A DNA stretch of 36,515 bases, from positions 75,296-111,810 of the forward strand of contig JAANXF010000018.1 in the NCBI GenBank assembly GCA_018263395.1, given 5' to 3'. The stretch comes from Methanonatronarchaeales archaeon (lineage in GTDB: Archaea > Halobacteriota > Methanonatronarchaeia > JAANXF01). A program made the translations under genes and the position numbers. Position 1 is the stretch's first letter. Each line of letters starts with the position of its first letter. A model generated the notes under the pieces. The model was not told the DNA's origin. It saw only the letters and a list, made by a program, of their open reading frames with translations, and did not search any database. Shown here one piece after another: positions 23,223 to 29,459 of this stretch.

Positions 23223-23236
23223 CTTATTTCTTGCCG

Positions 23237-23788
23237 ATGGAGCTGCTCTCTCCAGGTGAGCTTAGACAGCGCAGGGAGCGCCTGGGCCTCACCCAGGCTG
23301 AGCTCGCGGAGCGCGCAGGCGTATCACAGCCCCTCATAGCCCGCGTCGAGAGCGGCTCTTTGGACCCCAGTATGTCGACCTACACCCGGGTCCTGGAGGC
23401 CCTGCACGAGACCGAGAGGGTGCAGGTGGAGGCCAGGGACCTCATGCATACCCCCGTGCTATCGGTATCCCCGAGGGATTCGGTACGGAAGGCGGTAGAG
23501 CTGATGAGGGACAGAGGGTTCTCACAGCTGCCGGTGATCGATGAAGACGTGCCGGTGGGAAGCATATCCGAGTCCGACGTGGTCCACGAGATGAGCGTCG
23601 AGGGACGGGCCATCACCGAGAGAAGCGTCAGGGACCTGATGGACGAAGGATTCCCGACCATCTCTCCCTCCACCGGGATCGACACCGTCTCGAGGATACT
23701 GGAGCACGAGTCGGCGCTCATGGTGGTCGAGAGGGGTGCGGTCGTCGGCGTCGTGACGAACGCTGACGTGATGAGGGTCCTGGAATGA
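23237..23788 (+). CDS. HTH-Xre regulator with two CBS domains
   Basis: The 183-residue protein joins an Xre-type helix-turn-helix (residues 7-60: LRQRRERLGLTQAELAERAG, VSQPLIARVESG) to a CBS pair (residues 68-183: RDLMHTPVLSVSPRDS, GFSQLPVIDEDVPVGSISES, RDLMDEGFPTISPST). CBS pairs bind adenine nucleotides or AdoMet, so it probably couples cell energy or methyl status to transcription. This domain pairing is common in archaea. The stop overlaps the Hps-RraA start (ATGA), which makes the sugar-phosphate enzyme the most likely target. I prefer the ATG at 23237 over the TTG two codons earlier. Confidence 0.9.
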   Translation: MELLSPGELRQRRERLGLTQAELAERAGVSQPLIARVESGSLDPSMSTYTRVLEALHETERVQVEARDLMHTPVLSVSPRDSVRKAVELMRDRGFSQLPVIDEDVPVGSISESDVVHEMSVEGRAITERSVRDLMDEGFPTISPSTGIDTVSRILEHESALMVVERGAVVGVVTNADVMRVLE

Positions 23789-25038
23789 TTCTACAGGTCG
23801 CACTCGACCTGACCAGTCTGGACAGGGCTATGGACATAGGTGAGGCAGCCCGGAGCGGGGGGGCCGACTGGCTCGAGGCAGGAACCCCCCTGATAAAGAG
23901 CGAGGGTATGGAAGCCGTCCGGAGGCTCAGCGAGAGATTCTCCGACGCCAAAATCGTCGCGGACATGAAGACGCTAGACACGGGCTCCCTGGAGGCCGAG
24001 ATGGCGACCAGGGCCGGAGCCGACCTCGTTACCGTCGTGGGAAGCAGTGAGGACTCGACAGTGGAGGAGGCCGTCGAATCCGCGAGGAGGTACGGCGGCG
24101 AGGTAGTGGCTGACCTGCTCGGCGTCGACGACCCGGAGAACAGGGCACTGGAGCTACAGGGGCTGGGCGTCTCCCACCTGCTCGTACACACGGGGATAGA
24201 CGCCCAGATGGCTGGCGCCTCGCCGCTCGACACGCTCAGGCGCGTGGCCTCCGCTGTCGATATCCCGGTAGCCGTCGCCGGCGGTATAGACGCCTCCTCG
24301 GCCGCCGGGGCCGTGTCCGCCGGTGCAGACATCGTCGTCGTGGGTGGAGCGATTACACGTACCGACGACGTGAAGGCCGCGGCGCTCAGGGTAAGGGAGG
24401 CGGTTGACTCCGGCGGCCCCGCCGAGCAGCCGGAAGAGGCGGGGAGGCCGAGTCCGTCCACTGCCAACATCAGCGACGCGGCACACCGCCGGGGCGTCGT
24501 CAGGGGACTCGGCGCCCTTCTCGACACGAGGGCCGAGGGGAGGGCGCTTACGGTAAAGACCGCGCCGGGGGACTGGGGGAGGGTTGTCCGGGCCCTTGAG
24601 GGGGCCGGCGAGGGAGACGTCGTGGTGGTGGACGCCGGAGGGACGGAGATGGCCGTGTGGGGGGAGCTGGCGAGCCTCTCAGCACTGAACCGCGGGGTCG
24701 CCGCAGCGGTGATAGACGGAGGGATACGGGACGTCGAGGAGATAATGGAGGCCGGTTTCCCCGTCTGGTACAGGCACGTGACGCCGGAGGCCGGCGAGCC
24801 GAAAGGGCTCGGCGAGGTGGGGGGCGAGGTGGAGGTCGGCGGAGTCCGGGTCTCGGAGGGCGACTACGTCGTCGCGGACCCGGACGGGGTCGTGGTGATC
24901 CCGTCGAGCCGGGTCGAGGAGGTTCTGCGTCGAGGAGGCATGGTGGAGGAGAACGAGGACCGGGTCAGGGCCGAGATTCTGGAGGGCTCGACGCTGAGCG
25001 AGGTGCTGGAGCTGGAGAGGTGGGAACGCGGCGACTAG
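23785..25038 (+). CDS. 3-hexulose-6-phosphate synthase fused to RraA-like domain
   Basis: The 417-residue fusion has an N-terminal Hps barrel (residues 1-205: LQVALDLTSLDRAM, ADMKTLDTGSLEAEMATRAGAD with the D-x-K-x-x-D active site, IPVAVAGGIDASSA). A Pro/Gly-rich linker follows at 205-230, then an RraA/HMG-aldolase-like domain (about 230-400) with AVIDGGIRDVEEI, including the RD-x2-E motif of metal-dependent aldolases. Hps links formaldehyde and ribulose 5-phosphate, and archaea can run it in reverse to make pentoses. The role of the RraA part in archaea is unsettled. This is the second Hps domain in the window. It is coupled to the HTH-CBS regulator and meets the antiporter gene at overlapping stops. 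Confidence 0.92.
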   Translation: MILQVALDLTSLDRAMDIGEAARSGGADWLEAGTPLIKSEGMEAVRRLSERFSDAKIVADMKTLDTGSLEAEMATRAGADLVTVVGSSEDSTVEEAVESARRYGGEVVADLLGVDDPENRALELQGLGVSHLLVHTGIDAQMAGASPLDTLRRVASAVDIPVAVAGGIDASSAAGAVSAGADIVVVGGAITRTDDVKAAALRVREAVDSGGPAEQPEEAGRPSPSTANISDAAHRRGVVRGLGALLDTRAEGRALTVKTAPGDWGRVVRALEGAGEGDVVVVDAGGTEMAVWGELASLSALNRGVAAAVIDGGIRDVEEIMEAGFPVWYRHVTPEAGEPKGLGEVGGEVEVGGVRVSEGDYVVADPDGVVVIPSSRVEEVLRRGGMVEENEDRVRAEILEGSTLSEVLELERWERGD

Positions 25039-26415: not shown

Positions 26416-26835
26416 ATGAGGGTCTTGGGAGTTATCGGGACGCGGCCGGACGTGTCGGTCGAGAGCGCGAAGGTAGCGGCCGGTGACGTGGCGGTGCTCG
26501 CGCTTTTCGTCGTGGTGGGGGAGTCCTTCCACAGCATAAGCCCCCTGAGCTTCCCCTGGCTGGCGCTGGACACCTTTTTGCCCTTCTTCATCGCGTGGGT
26601 CCTGCTGGCACCCGTGTCCGGCGCCTACGGCAGGGACGCCCGCTCGTCCGCCAGGGGGGCCGTGGTCCACGGAACCGTGGCCTGGTCCCTCGTCAGCCTG
26701 CTCGGTCAGGCGATAAGGGCGTCGCCGTACTTCCACGGCGGCACCGGGGTCGAGTTCTTCGTCGTCACCCTGGTCACGGGAATGCTCTTCCTCCTGCCGT
26801 GGAGGATAGCGGCCTCCAGGTGGCTCAAAAGCTGA
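26416..26835 (+). CDS. DUF3054-family membrane protein
   Basis: The 139-residue protein has four membrane segments (about residues 23-40, 51-67, 82-100 and 113-130). It shows the DUF3054 pattern [16 protein letters not shown], then [39 protein letters not shown] and a final LPWRIAASR. The function is unknown, and members are common in haloarchaea and actinobacteria. A GATATTACC box lies about 30 bases upstream, with AGGTGG just before the ATG. It overlaps the convergent triosephosphate isomerase gene by 11 bp. Confidence 0.85.
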
Positions 26836-27466
26836 CCAGGTCCCGAAGCGCCTCTCCCGGTTCGTCGGCCTTCACGACGCCGCTGGCGAGAAGGACGCCC
26901 TCCGCGCCGAGAGACAGGGCCGCCTCCACGTCCTCTCCCGTGGAGATTCCGGCGCCGCAGAGAACCGGTACGTCCGAGACAGCCACGGCCCCCTCGACTA
27001 TCTCGGGTTCGGCCCTGGAGACCGGTATCCCCGTCCCGATTAGCTCAGGCGGCTCGATCGCGACGTAGTCGGGCTCTAGCTCCGACGCGGCGGCCGACGT
27101 GGAAGCGTCGTTACTGCACACGATGGTCTCGAGTCCGACCTCCCGAGCCCACTCCACCGCTCCGCCGGCGTCGGCGAGGGTGAGGCGCCTCTCGCTGTGG
27201 TTTATCAGGGTACCGACCGCCCCGGCCCCCCTGACGGCCTCGGGCAGCGCGTGTCCGGTGTTGCTGCCGGGCTCGACGGCGTCCACGTGCTGGGCCCAGA
27301 CCTCGGCATCCGTCTCCCGCGATACGCGGTACAGGTCGGCGGCCTGAGGCGCCACGGCGATACGTTCTCCGGTCTCCTCCGACGCCTCGGCGCAGAGCTC
27401 CGCGATTCTCACCGCCCCCCCGCCGGTCCCCTCCGCGTAGGTCTTCAGGTTGACGAGGATCAACAT
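26825..27466 (-). CDS. tpiA: Triosephosphate isomerase, archaeal type
   Basis: TpiA interconverts dihydroxyacetone phosphate and glyceraldehyde 3-phosphate. The 213-residue length matches compact archaeal enzymes rather than the 250-residue bacterial ones. Visible active-site parts are LVNLKTY (Asn and Lys), TLINHSERR (electrophilic His), [13 protein letters not shown] (catalytic Glu and loop 6) and the phosphate loop around [10 protein letters not shown] and [10 protein letters not shown] take the ATG at 27466, and a GTG one codon earlier is also in frame. With the type V FBPase at 30757 it supports gluconeogenesis. Confidence 0.96.
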
Positions 27467-27572
27467 CACCCTTAGCTCTCACGGTGGGGTCAAAACGGTT
27501 TAGGCCCCTCGCGAACGGGGACTGCGTAGAGAGGATGGGAAACTGGAGCCCGCCCGAGGGGACCCCTGTCGT

Positions 27573-27591
27573 AAAAAAAGTGTTTTTTTTT
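27573..27591 (-). terminator. Poly-T termination region after the small Cys4 gene
   Basis: Just after the Cys4 gene stop (27597), the minus strand reads A9 then CAC then T7 (T7 at 27573-27579). The plus strand has T9 at 27583-27591. Archaeal RNA polymerase terminates at such T-runs, and in this GC-rich sequence it stands out strongly. Confidence 0.6.
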
Positions 27592-27596
27592 GCACT

Positions 27597-27752
27597 CTAC
27601 CTGTTTATCACGTCCTCCTCGGTGAGCTCGTTTCCACAGCAGACTATTTTCTCTATGCCGGCTCCTCCATCGAGTATCTCTATCCTGGCCCCGCAGCACG
27701 CTCCGTACTGTTCCGGGTCCTCGTACACTATATCTCCTTTCTGGAAAACCAT
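27597..27752 (-). CDS. 51-residue cysteine-rich protein, desulforedoxin-like
   Basis: This short protein starts MVFQKGDIVYEDPEQYGACC and contains KIVCCGNELTEED near the end. Two CC pairs about 28 residues apart, with VY before the first and CCG in the second, resemble desulforedoxin or the N-terminal domain of desulfoferrodoxin, where four cysteines bind iron. Here the first pair is CC rather than CxxC, so the fold and metal are uncertain. The start is supported by GGAGGT seven bases before the ATG, and a poly-T terminator follows the stop. It is divergent from the HxlR regulator, sharing its promoter region, so a redox-sensing link is plausible. Confidence 0.65.
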   Translation of the reverse strand: MVFQKGDIVYEDPEQYGACCGARIEILDGGAGIEKIVCCGNELTEEDVINR

Positions 27753-27776
27753 TTCCTGGACCTCCTTACCTTTAGT

Positions 27777-27812
27777 AGGCTAGTAACAAAGGGAAACTAC
27801 TTAAGGGTTCCC
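27777..27812 (+). promoter_or_regulatory. Promoter/operator between the Cys4 gene and hxlR
   Basis: AAACTACTTAAGG is centred about 30 bases before the HxlR ATG (27831), a fit for its TATA element. It is bracketed by the inverted arms GGGAA (27791-27795) and TTCCC (27808-27812). A repeated TAGTA lies at 27775-27785 on the side of the small gene. The arms could be an HxlR binding site controlling both genes, which is inference. Confidence 0.4.
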
Positions 27813-27830
27813 TGAGAGGGCGGTAATCGG

Positions 27831-28145
27831 ATGGCTTCAGGGAAAGAGGCTGACTGCCCACTCACCTCCGCCGCCGATATCCTCGGAAGGAAGTGGAGCT
27901 TCGTTATAGTCGGACACCTGACGGGCGGGGATAAAAGGTTCTCCGAACTCGAGGCCGAGATTCCCGGCATCTCTTCGAAGGTACTGTCCTCGAACCTCAA
28001 GTCCCTGCAGGGGGAGGGAATCGTGGAGCGCAGCGTCGAGACCAACTCCCCCATAGAGGTCAGGTACAGCCTGACGGAGAAGGGACGCGACCTCGAACCC
28101 CTCATCGGAGAGGTGGAGAGGTGGGCGAGCGAGTGGGACGTTTAG
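27831..28145 (+). CDS. HxlR-family winged-helix regulator
   Basis: The 104-residue protein has the full HxlR fold: ADCPLTSAADILGRKWSFVI, RFSELEAEIPGISSKVLSSN as the recognition region, LKSLQGEGIVERSVE and a wing YSLTEKGRDLEPL. Cys9 is at the position of the redox or electrophile-sensing cysteine of HxlR/HypR-type proteins. The founding member activates the Hps/Phi genes of Bacillus in response to formaldehyde. Here the next gene downstream, convergent, is Fae-Hps, and a small Cys-rich gene is divergent. Control of one or both is a reasonable inference. The TATA spacing suggests a leaderless mRNA. Confidence 0.92.
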   Translation: MASGKEADCPLTSAADILGRKWSFVIVGHLTGGDKRFSELEAEIPGISSKVLSSNLKSLQGEGIVERSVETNSPIEVRYSLTEKGRDLEPLIGEVERWASEWDV

Positions 28146-28210
28146 AGCGGCCCCTGTACCTGTGACCCCCGTGACCCTCAGTTGACCAGGCGTCGGAGGA
28201 GCCGCGCCGA

Positions 28211-28228
28211 GGAGAGGGCTACCTCTCC
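28211..28228. terminator. Inverted repeat between convergent hxlR and fae-hps
   Basis: GGAGAGG and CCTCTCC form a 7-bp perfect stem with a 4-base loop in the 99-bp space between the two convergent stops. There is no T-run, so a terminator or RNA 3'-end role is only suggested. Confidence 0.35.
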
Positions 28229-28244
28229 CGGAGGAGGCAACGGC

Positions 28245-29459
28245 TCAGAAGTCGGTCTTCCAGCGGAACTGGTCTATGTCGCCGAACTTCTCGTCCATCC
28301 CGCTCCAGGCCGTATCCATCTTCTCCAGGAAGTTCCTGGCCTTGGCCTCCGGGTCCTTGGAGTTGGCGATGGCGCGCCCGACCACCAGGATGTCGGCTCC
28401 CGCCCTCAGGGCGTCGTCGACGGTCTCCTCCGTGATGCCGCCCGCTACCGCGACCAGGGCCCCCCCGGTGACCTCCTTTATCTCCGCGATGTCGCCCCAG
28501 GCGGAGTGTTCTCCTCCTGCGTACTCCTGATCGATGCCACGGTGGAGCTCGACGACGTGGGGCCTCTCGTCCAGCTCCTCCAGCAGCGCGACGGGGTCCT
28601 CCACGTTCAGCATGTCTATTATGCAGTATATGCCGGTCTTGTCGGCCTCCCGTATCGCCTTCTCCACGGTGTTGCTGTCTGCCAGACCGGAGACGACTAT
28701 GCCGTCCGCACCAGCGTCGCTGGCCATCCTCGCCTCGAGGTGCCCGGTATCCAGGGTCTTCAGGTCGGCGATTATGAATGCATCCTCGTCGTGCTCCCTG
28801 AGCTCCTCGATTACGTTTATGCCGTACTTCTTCGTTAGCGGCGTTCCCGCTTCGAAGATCAGGTGGTCGCTCTCCGGCATGGCCTCGAGTATCCCTATCT
28901 GCTGCTTTATGGAGGGCCTGTCCATGGCCACCTGCAGGTACGGCGGGCTCCTGAGCTTCACGGTGCGGGTACCCATAAGCGGGTGTCCCCCCCTGTCCTT
29001 CTCCTCCATCAGCGTCTCGTAGTCCGGGAAGTCCTCCACGGCGCGCTGGATGGCCAAGCGGGTGGCTCCGTAGTTGAACCTGTTTATTTTCTGGTAGTCC
29101 TCGGCCTCGGGGTGGATGAATACACTGACTATGAGGACCAGCTCCTCCAGCCGGTCCTTCGGAAGTGCACCCTCCTCCACGGAGTCGGCCACGGCGCGTG
29201 CCACAGCCTCCTGCGCCGGTCCAAAAATCTTTCCCGCCTCCTCCATGTCACTGACCGTGACCTTCGGCACGAGAAGCGTGGCGGGCTTCGTGGGCAGGTT
29301 CGGCCTTATGACGCTCAACAGCGGGGTGTGTCCCCTCGAAAGCTCGGTGAGTCCGTTCAGAAAGGCCTCCCCGACGGGGCCCTCCTTGTCACCTACCACG
29401 AGATCTATGTGAGCCACCTCGGGCTCCTCACCCACGAGTGCCTCTCCAACCTTGAACAT
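28245..29459 (-). CDS. fae-hps: Bifunctional formaldehyde-activating enzyme / hexulose-6-phosphate synthase
   Basis: The 404-residue protein fuses Fae (residues 1-160: [20 protein letters not shown] with the catalytic His, [31 protein letters not shown]) to an Hps barrel (about 175-395: [50 protein letters not shown]). In archaea Hps cleaves hexulose 6-phosphate to ribulose 5-phosphate and formaldehyde, and Fae captures the formaldehyde on tetrahydromethanopterin. This gives pentoses without an oxidative pentose pathway. Its presence implies a methanopterin-type C1 carrier. A CGTTATAGC box lies about 33 bases before the ATG, which directly precedes [10 protein letters not shown]. It is not coupled to the second Hps gene at 23785. 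Confidence 0.95.

Follow-up and report, generated by a model that had tools for sequence, protein, structure and literature searches.

A 51-residue CC/CC protein, probably a very divergent desulforedoxin relative, encoded opposite an HxlR-family regulator between fae-hps and tpi

Introduction

The locus raises the question of what a 51-residue protein with two pairs of adjacent cysteines may do beside the enzymes of formaldehyde fixation, and whether it belongs with the HxlR/DUF24 regulator encoded divergently from it. The genes lie in a stretch of 36.5 kb (hereafter the window, meaning the whole stretch of DNA that was analysed), which is part of a 22-contig assembly with a total length of 1.17 Mb and a completeness of 78%, archaeal in type as judged from the genes it carries. 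Members of the HxlR/DUF24 family are described as sensing electrophiles and oxidants through their conserved cysteine (PMC7835342, PMC6798810). A first-pass annotation, made from the sequence alone, had compared the small protein to desulforedoxin and had proposed that the regulator responds to formaldehyde or oxidants. These proposals were followed up by profile and genome searches, shuffling controls and a comparison of gene order in relatives.

Results

The small gene and its signals

The features of the locus are collected in Table 1. The small gene encodes the protein MVFQKGDIVYEDPEQYGACCGARIEILDGGAGIEKIVCCGNELTEEDVINR, in which both cysteine pairs read CCG and which is acidic (D+E 22%, K+R 8%). 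The reading frame with two CC pairs and a strong ribosome site, as first annotated, was borne out by the ORF, by the GGAGGT motif and by a coding score of 0.53 bits per codon, which is rough because at least four of the 23 long window ORFs used to train it lost their place to ORFs of a different frame when the genes were finally chosen. This score was reached by none of the 37 spurious ORFs of 45-70 aa that were nested within the long ORFs of the training set. Judged by its sequence, the small CC/CC gene is real. The poly-T terminator that had been assigned to it was retained only in part, as a T7 run is present after the stop but no GC stem was found 3' of the gene in the terminator scan, so that the run would be at most an archaeal-type oligo-T signal. 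Moreover, the only A/T runs of at least 7 nt in the window were this T7, on the coding strand of the small gene, and an adjoining T9 on the forward strand.

Table 1. Features of the locus, in window coordinates
Feature	Position	Strand	Remarks
Triosephosphate isomerase gene (tpi)	26825..27469	(-)	Downstream half of the putatively interrupted operon
Gap between fae-hps and tpi	27470..28244	.	775 bp; filled by the divergent small gene and HxlR gene
T7 run	27573..27579	(-)	3' of the small-gene stop; possible archaeal oligo-T terminator, without GC stem
51-aa CC/CC protein gene	27597..27752	(-)	ATG start; Cys19, Cys20, Cys38, Cys39; divergent, desulforedoxin-like
Region common to the divergent small gene and HxlR gene	27753..27830	.	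78 bp
Shine-Dalgarno motif GGAGGT	27760..27765	(-)	7 nt 5' of the small-gene ATG; read directly
Inverted repeat AGGGAA-N12-TTCCCT	27790..27813	.	Arms AGGGAA 27790-27795 and TTCCCT 27808-27813, around CTTAAG (27800-27805); candidate TATA boxes and operator; chance level
HxlR/DUF24 winged-helix regulator gene	27831..28145	(+)	104 aa; single Cys9, codon 27855-27857
fae-hps fusion gene (formaldehyde-activating enzyme / hexulose-6-phosphate synthase)	28245..29459	(-)	Upstream half of the putatively interrupted operon

Likeness of the small protein to desulforedoxin

In the Pfam scan of the small protein, PF06397 was the only family found at E<=1, with 16.2 bits, below the cut-off of 23; its E value of 0.0085 is weak alone because one of 40 Cys-preserving shuffles gave E 0.009 to another family, while none of the 40 matched PF06397. 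In NCBIfam, the only matches were the desulfoferrodoxin models TIGR00320 and TIGR00319, neither of which came near its cut-off (13.1 bits against a required 36.05 for TIGR00319), and all five PDB matches at E<=10 were desulforedoxins or desulfoferrodoxins (E 0.28-1.3). Furthermore, when 29 desulforedoxin domains from the phylum were made into a profile, the small protein scored 14.1 bits against it, a value equalled by 16 of 20000 Cys-preserving shuffles and by 6 of 20000 full shuffles, so the similarity extends beyond the cysteines. An hhalign comparison with eight desulforedoxins gave a probability of 75 and a P of 2.5e-5 over 25 columns. In both the HMMER and the hhalign alignments, VCCG at residues 37-40 was placed on the last ligand pair of desulforedoxin, which is likewise a CC followed by Gly.

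Blind searches with the single sequence and no profile, run against 40 relatives at E<=1 and against the phylum genomes at E<=0.05, returned 15 weak places besides the gene itself. Most tellingly, three of them (L005, L006 and L016) proved to be genuine desulforedoxin domains, L005 and L006 overlapping PF06397 places from the genome profile search. When the small protein and a desulforedoxin were combined in a two-row profile, a PDB search retrieved desulforedoxins strongly, but this result was discounted as circular. The single-sequence AlphaFold model was poor (pLDDT 55), with a single Foldseek match at E 7.1; AlphaFold2 is described in PMC11241148 as unable to distinguish metal-binding from metal-free cysteine sets.

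In common with desulforedoxin and the N-terminal domain of desulfoferrodoxin (PF06397, TIGR00319), the best match in three libraries, the small protein is a small, stand-alone four-cysteine protein with VCCG as its second pair, and the likeness takes in CG, an IEIL/VEVL-like strand, a glycine-rich turn and [IL]VCCG. Homology to desulforedoxin is thus considered likely, and the small protein is probably a very divergent relative. The resemblance proposed at first therefore holds as distant homology (16.2 bits, hhalign, three of the 15 weak matches) but not as family membership, for which 23 bits would be required.

Departures from the desulforedoxin motif

The motif of desulforedoxin centre I is given as CX2CX15CC in PMC3116461 and was kept in all 30 PF06397 loci fetched, while the small protein reads CCX17CC. 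As the second pair of the motif is itself CC, only the first pair differs, and the statement that CxxC had been replaced by CC is accurate for the first pair but not for the second. The number of residues between the first cysteine and the last pair is 18 in both proteins. The change at the first knuckle can be described either as the loss of two internal residues with a hairpin two residues longer, or as a shift of the second cysteine beside the first, and two alignments differ on this point.

Unlike desulforedoxin, the small protein has CC and not CxxC as its first pair, a spacer to the second CC that is two residues longer (17 against 15) and a longer N-terminal part, and it falls below all the curated cut-offs tested. 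By motif and cut-offs it lies outside the desulforedoxin family, but it may well work like one. In particular, it would be a stand-alone, diverged protein of the desulforedoxin type in which a single metal ion is bound by the two CCG knuckles; metal binding is slightly favoured. Among the matches listed in searches of open-licence papers, no CC/CC desulforedoxin was found.

The HxlR/DUF24 regulator

The first-pass description of a divergent, cysteine-bearing HxlR regulator was upheld: the protein matched PF01638 with 98.1 bits, above the Pfam cut-off of 20.8, and has Cys9 in the sensor column of the family. Its nearest solved structures were YybR (E 8.8e-19) and YodB (E 1.9e-18), with whose N-terminal cysteines Cys9 aligns. 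Homologous places numbered 29, from 17 of the 40 relatives, and 21 of these carried a cysteine in the sensor column, so that this conserved N-terminal residue is the family norm. The gene has an unremarkable GC content (60%).

YybR, which we take to be HypR, has a second cysteine that is presumably the partner of the N-terminal one. The regulator is alike with the MarR/DUF24 thiol sensors HypR, YodB, QsrR and HxlR in being a full-length member with the conserved N-terminal cysteine. It differs in having nothing at the position of the second cysteine of YybR, no C-terminal cysteine as in YodB and no lysine partner as in B. subtilis HxlR. With one cysteine in 104 aa, and hence no second residue for an intersubunit disulfide, a pair of the HypR or YodB type is impossible in this protein. 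By analogy, a single-cysteine switch as described for QsrR (PMC6798810) or a Cys9-Cys9' bond is possible, and a single-cysteine winged-helix thiol switch has been described in an archaeon (OxsR, PMC9426492).

The formaldehyde response of B. subtilis HxlR is reported to depend on a methylene bridge that links Cys11 to Lys13, the K13A variant being insensitive (PMC7835342). Here the regulator reads Cys9-Pro10-Leu11, without the Cys-x-Lys arrangement, and with Leu11 in place of the lysine, that mechanism is unavailable to it.

The shared intergenic region

The first-pass annotation had noted GGGAA/TTCCC arms in the common promoter region of the two genes. The arms are present but, as operator evidence, lie at chance level: dinucleotide shuffling of 27753-27830 produced a 6-bp arm pair in 1955 of 5000 cases (39%), or in 1026 of 5000 (20.5%) if the loop is restricted to 8-14. 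Moreover, GGGAA-N12-TTCCC has one other copy in the assembled genome, inside an ORF reading like a cysteine desulfurase, and the reversed control pattern also occurs at one place per strand. Since equal arms arise in shuffles, the inverted repeat was rejected as evidence of an operator. The CTTAAG between the arms is separated from the HxlR ATG by about 28 bp and from the small-gene ATG by about 50 bp, spacings compatible with TATA boxes if the HxlR transcript is leaderless and the small-gene transcript has a short leader. Control of the small gene by the regulator is considered about as likely as not.

Neighbours of HxlR relatives

A recognisable homologue of the small protein was found beside none of the 29 HxlR relatives. 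A scan for ORFs with at least four cysteines, which counts 28 of the 29 loci as the regulator was misplaced in L079, yielded mostly ORFs that look like chance frames. At two of the 29 loci (L074 and L077), a short cysteine-rich ORF is encoded on the opposite strand with its start 101-150 nt upstream of the HxlR relative: at L074 (genome G020) it has 59 aa and contains CGC and CCCG, and at L077 (G022) it has 72-74 aa, contains CC and CECGC and is DUF5320-like below cut-off. These proteins resemble the small protein in being short, cysteine-rich with CC, and divergent from an HxlR-family gene, but they are unrelated in sequence, with a cysteine-rich head and a helical-looking tail. The placing of an HxlR gene beside a small cysteine protein is therefore not unique to the window, and at two of 29 loci it may still be due to chance.

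Other neighbours were varied. The nearest HxlR relative (55% identity, genome G024; L051 1492-2914) adjoins a gene for an FTR1 iron permease. In two of the 29 loci, both from one genus (L073 and L075), the HxlR relative lies beside a Fae gene, from which it was read to be divergent in L073 (811-1875), and in both the sensor cysteine is replaced by serine. A Haloarcula relative adjoins genes for a carboxymuconolactone decarboxylase family protein and a TauE/SafE exporter, and in Haloferax mediterranei the neighbour is a 56-aa protein with one cysteine. No CC/CC neighbour of plasmid HxlR relatives was annotated in the three of 65 records inspected. Overall, the neighbours give hints of an iron, formaldehyde or redox context.

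These loci bear on two other readings of the small protein. In the first, which we consider unlikely, it would be a zinc-knuckle protein akin to the C(P)XCG proteins of haloarchaea, in which zinc has a structural role and the fold binds either protein or nucleic acid, for regulation and not for electron transfer. Such zinc-finger microproteins abound in Haloferax at 40-60 aa, as described in PMC11241148, and the acidic small protein shares with them this size range, its 51 aa falling within it, and four cysteines in two pairs, each followed by Gly, forming two CG knuckles. In addition, at L059 (G010) a 55-aa zinc-finger-type protein of family DUF7838 (about 1257-1424), carrying CPECG and CEECG, is encoded immediately upstream of the HxlR relative and in the same orientation. 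However, the two C(P)XCG motifs by which the group is defined in PMC11241148 are absent, as the small protein has no CxxCG or CPxCG and its pairs are adjacent (CCG twice), and its profile matches were to desulforedoxin, not to zinc-finger families.

In the second reading, the small protein would be free of metal, its CC pairs acting as vicinal dithiols that trap oxidants, electrophiles or a thiophilic metal after induction through the regulator upon thiol attack. The adjacent cysteines, the loss of the CxxC of the desulforedoxin site and the DUF24 partner, of a kind described as sensing oxidants or electrophiles (PMC6798810), would fit such a role, as would the CC or CCC runs in the short proteins divergent from the HxlR relatives of L074 and L077. 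It is nevertheless distinctly unlikely, since desulforedoxin itself uses the CC of its second pair to bind metal and the residues near both pairs resemble metal knuckles (CCG).

Searches for homologues of the small protein

No CC/CC homologue was found by single-sequence search in the 391 other genomes of the phylum (392 with its own), which include the 40 relatives and two other genomes of the same class, and none was found in species genomes (two scans), viral contigs, plasmids or phages, the species-genome and viral scans being of lower sensitivity as they need near-exact short peptides. A CC..CC pattern was present in the aligned stretch of none of the 15 weak genome matches, L007 giving a poor alignment only. 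As a control, a 41-aa desulforedoxin query matched 20 of 41 genomes (E<=0.05); in 17 the match had E<1e-8, with identities reaching as low as about 50%, and these 17 relatives were also the ones with a PF06397 match at E<1e-12. A homologue of the small protein with about 50% identity should thus have shown in the genomes searched. In plasmids, the desulforedoxin control query also found no match, so the lack of plasmid matches to the small protein says little. The small protein matched two PHROGs families of unknown function (E 0.095 and 0.3). A lack of homologues at this locus in relatives, which the first-pass annotation had named, jointly with a missing transcript, as counting against it, is what was found among the genomes searched; codon use speaks for a real gene.

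In the genome itself, L017 was considered as a paralogue and rejected, as it encodes a CBS-domain protein (L017 1048-1584) whose C-terminal ribbon carries CxxC/CxxC. The ribbon scored 19.0 bits against the desulforedoxin profile, more than the small protein and also below cut-off. A further PF06397-like place was found at L019 (E 0.46). No superoxide reductase (PF01880) was found in this 78%-complete genome; rubrerythrins are present. A second rubrerythrin-like protein (L083, 1363-1845) has an N-terminal CC pair and, unlike that of L082, no rubredoxin domain match. Among viral sequences, the CxxC...CC pattern of a small protein encoded on an IMG/VR contig (L089, about 1444-1626) is desulforedoxin-like.

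The lack of homologues in any collection searched would suit a decayed or newly arisen orphan ORF that came with the regulator and has no conserved function, as would the composition of the gene, whose GC content is the lowest among the 24 window genes measured and whose GC3 is low (33/51 vs 0.81; P 0.0045). Such an origin is improbable, since the frame is clean, the ribosome site strong, the codons coding-like and the knuckle residues kept; read from the codons, more than one base change would be needed to restore CxxC.

The fae-hps/tpi operon

The tpi loci of 20 relatives were fetched with about 1.5 kb of flank. In 10 of them, which represent seven families, tpi is immediately preceded by a co-directional fae-hps, with gaps between matched ends of 10-216 bp in nine and of 664 bp in one (G020); in the other 10, no fae-hps was found within the approximately 1.5 kb fetched around tpi. 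In the two genomes of the same class, both of which are among the nine, the fae-hps and tpi ORFs are 2 bp and 17 bp apart. Thus fae-hps and tpi adjoin in half of the 20 relatives, and in the window exactly the divergent pair separates them, an observation new here that draws on window positions 26825-29459 and loci L091, L092, L096-L101, L105, L107, L108 and L115-L117.

The stretch 27573-28145 has 55.0% GC, compared to an average of 63.9% for windows of equal size. A GC content as low was found in 0.55% of the 35942 windows of 573 bp in the 36.5 kb, at three places, of which 27573-28145 is one. No direct repeats of at least 8 bp were found at both ends of the stretch. Most simply, the divergent pair would be an insertion, made in this lineage, into a fae-hps/tpi operon that existed before, after which tpi would depend on its own promoter; the unremarkable GC content of the HxlR gene does not favour this. 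From the gene order we infer both the direction of change, an insertion, and the entry of the pair as a single unit; the lack of flanking repeats, together with the lack of a small-protein homologue beside any of the 29 HxlR relatives, counts against entry as a unit. An insertion would explain how a possible redox protein came to lie beside a formaldehyde enzyme without a functional link.

In the relative with the 664-bp gap (G020), the same operon gap also holds a redox protein gene on the opposite strand, but this is a gene for an NADPH-dependent FMN reductase (PF03358), and no HxlR match was found at the locus. Opposite-strand or divergent genes of redox type in the fae-hps/tpi gap were therefore seen in the window and in G020. 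Separately, a gene for an HTH-CBS regulator followed by an HPS-RraA fusion (window 23231-25038) is kept in G002 of the same class (L117 3031-4868), near fae-hps in both.

A role of the regulator in sensing formaldehyde through Cys9 and controlling the small protein within a fae-hps formaldehyde response, which the fae-hps neighbour and the HxlR relatives beside Fae genes in L073 and L075 (one genus, divergent in L073) might suggest, is very improbable, because the lysine required two residues past the cysteine in B. subtilis HxlR (PMC7835342) is missing, the Fae-linked relatives carry serine at the sensor position, and fae-hps is convergent, with no common promoter, and the pair looks inserted beside it; by the known route, the formaldehyde sensing first proposed thus fails.

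Discussion

The locus is read here, tentatively, as a lineage-specific pair formed by a metal-thiolate microprotein and a thiol-switch regulator and inserted in a formaldehyde operon. Set beside the alternatives given above, this reading is somewhat more apt to fail in one of its parts than to hold entire. The metal bound by the two knuckles would most likely be iron, with zinc as the main alternative, and the protein might form a homodimer like desulforedoxin. Its role may be that of a small one-electron carrier or of a metal-thiolate buffer under redox or electrophile stress. The regulator would most likely control both genes from the 78-bp region through a Cys9 thiol switch, releasing or activating the common promoter upon thiol damage so that the small protein is made, and the pair would have entered the lineage as a unit between fae-hps and tpi.

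A bolder form of this reading is that the small protein is a natural 'all-CC' desulforedoxin, in which both knuckles are CCG and a mononuclear iron site is strained on both sides, and which forms with its own regulator a transferable pair that splits the fae-hps/tpi operon. This we consider rather unlikely. To our knowledge, no natural protein has a rubredoxin-type site built from two adjacent-cysteine pairs. As it stands, the small protein is one orphan sequence so far, and its putative chemistry is read from its residues.

If the small protein binds iron, it would establish that two adjacent-cysteine pairs suffice for a rubredoxin-type site, and the relation of ligand spacing to redox potential would be directly testable in a protein of 51 residues. 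If it does not, it would show how far small cysteine proteins may drift beyond the profiles of their families. Furthermore, the operon comparison points to a pair of regulator and microprotein that breaks up a widely kept operon for formaldehyde fixation, and the HxlR-type genes of L074 and L077, with their unrelated short cysteine-rich proteins, suggest that such pairing may be a wider habit.
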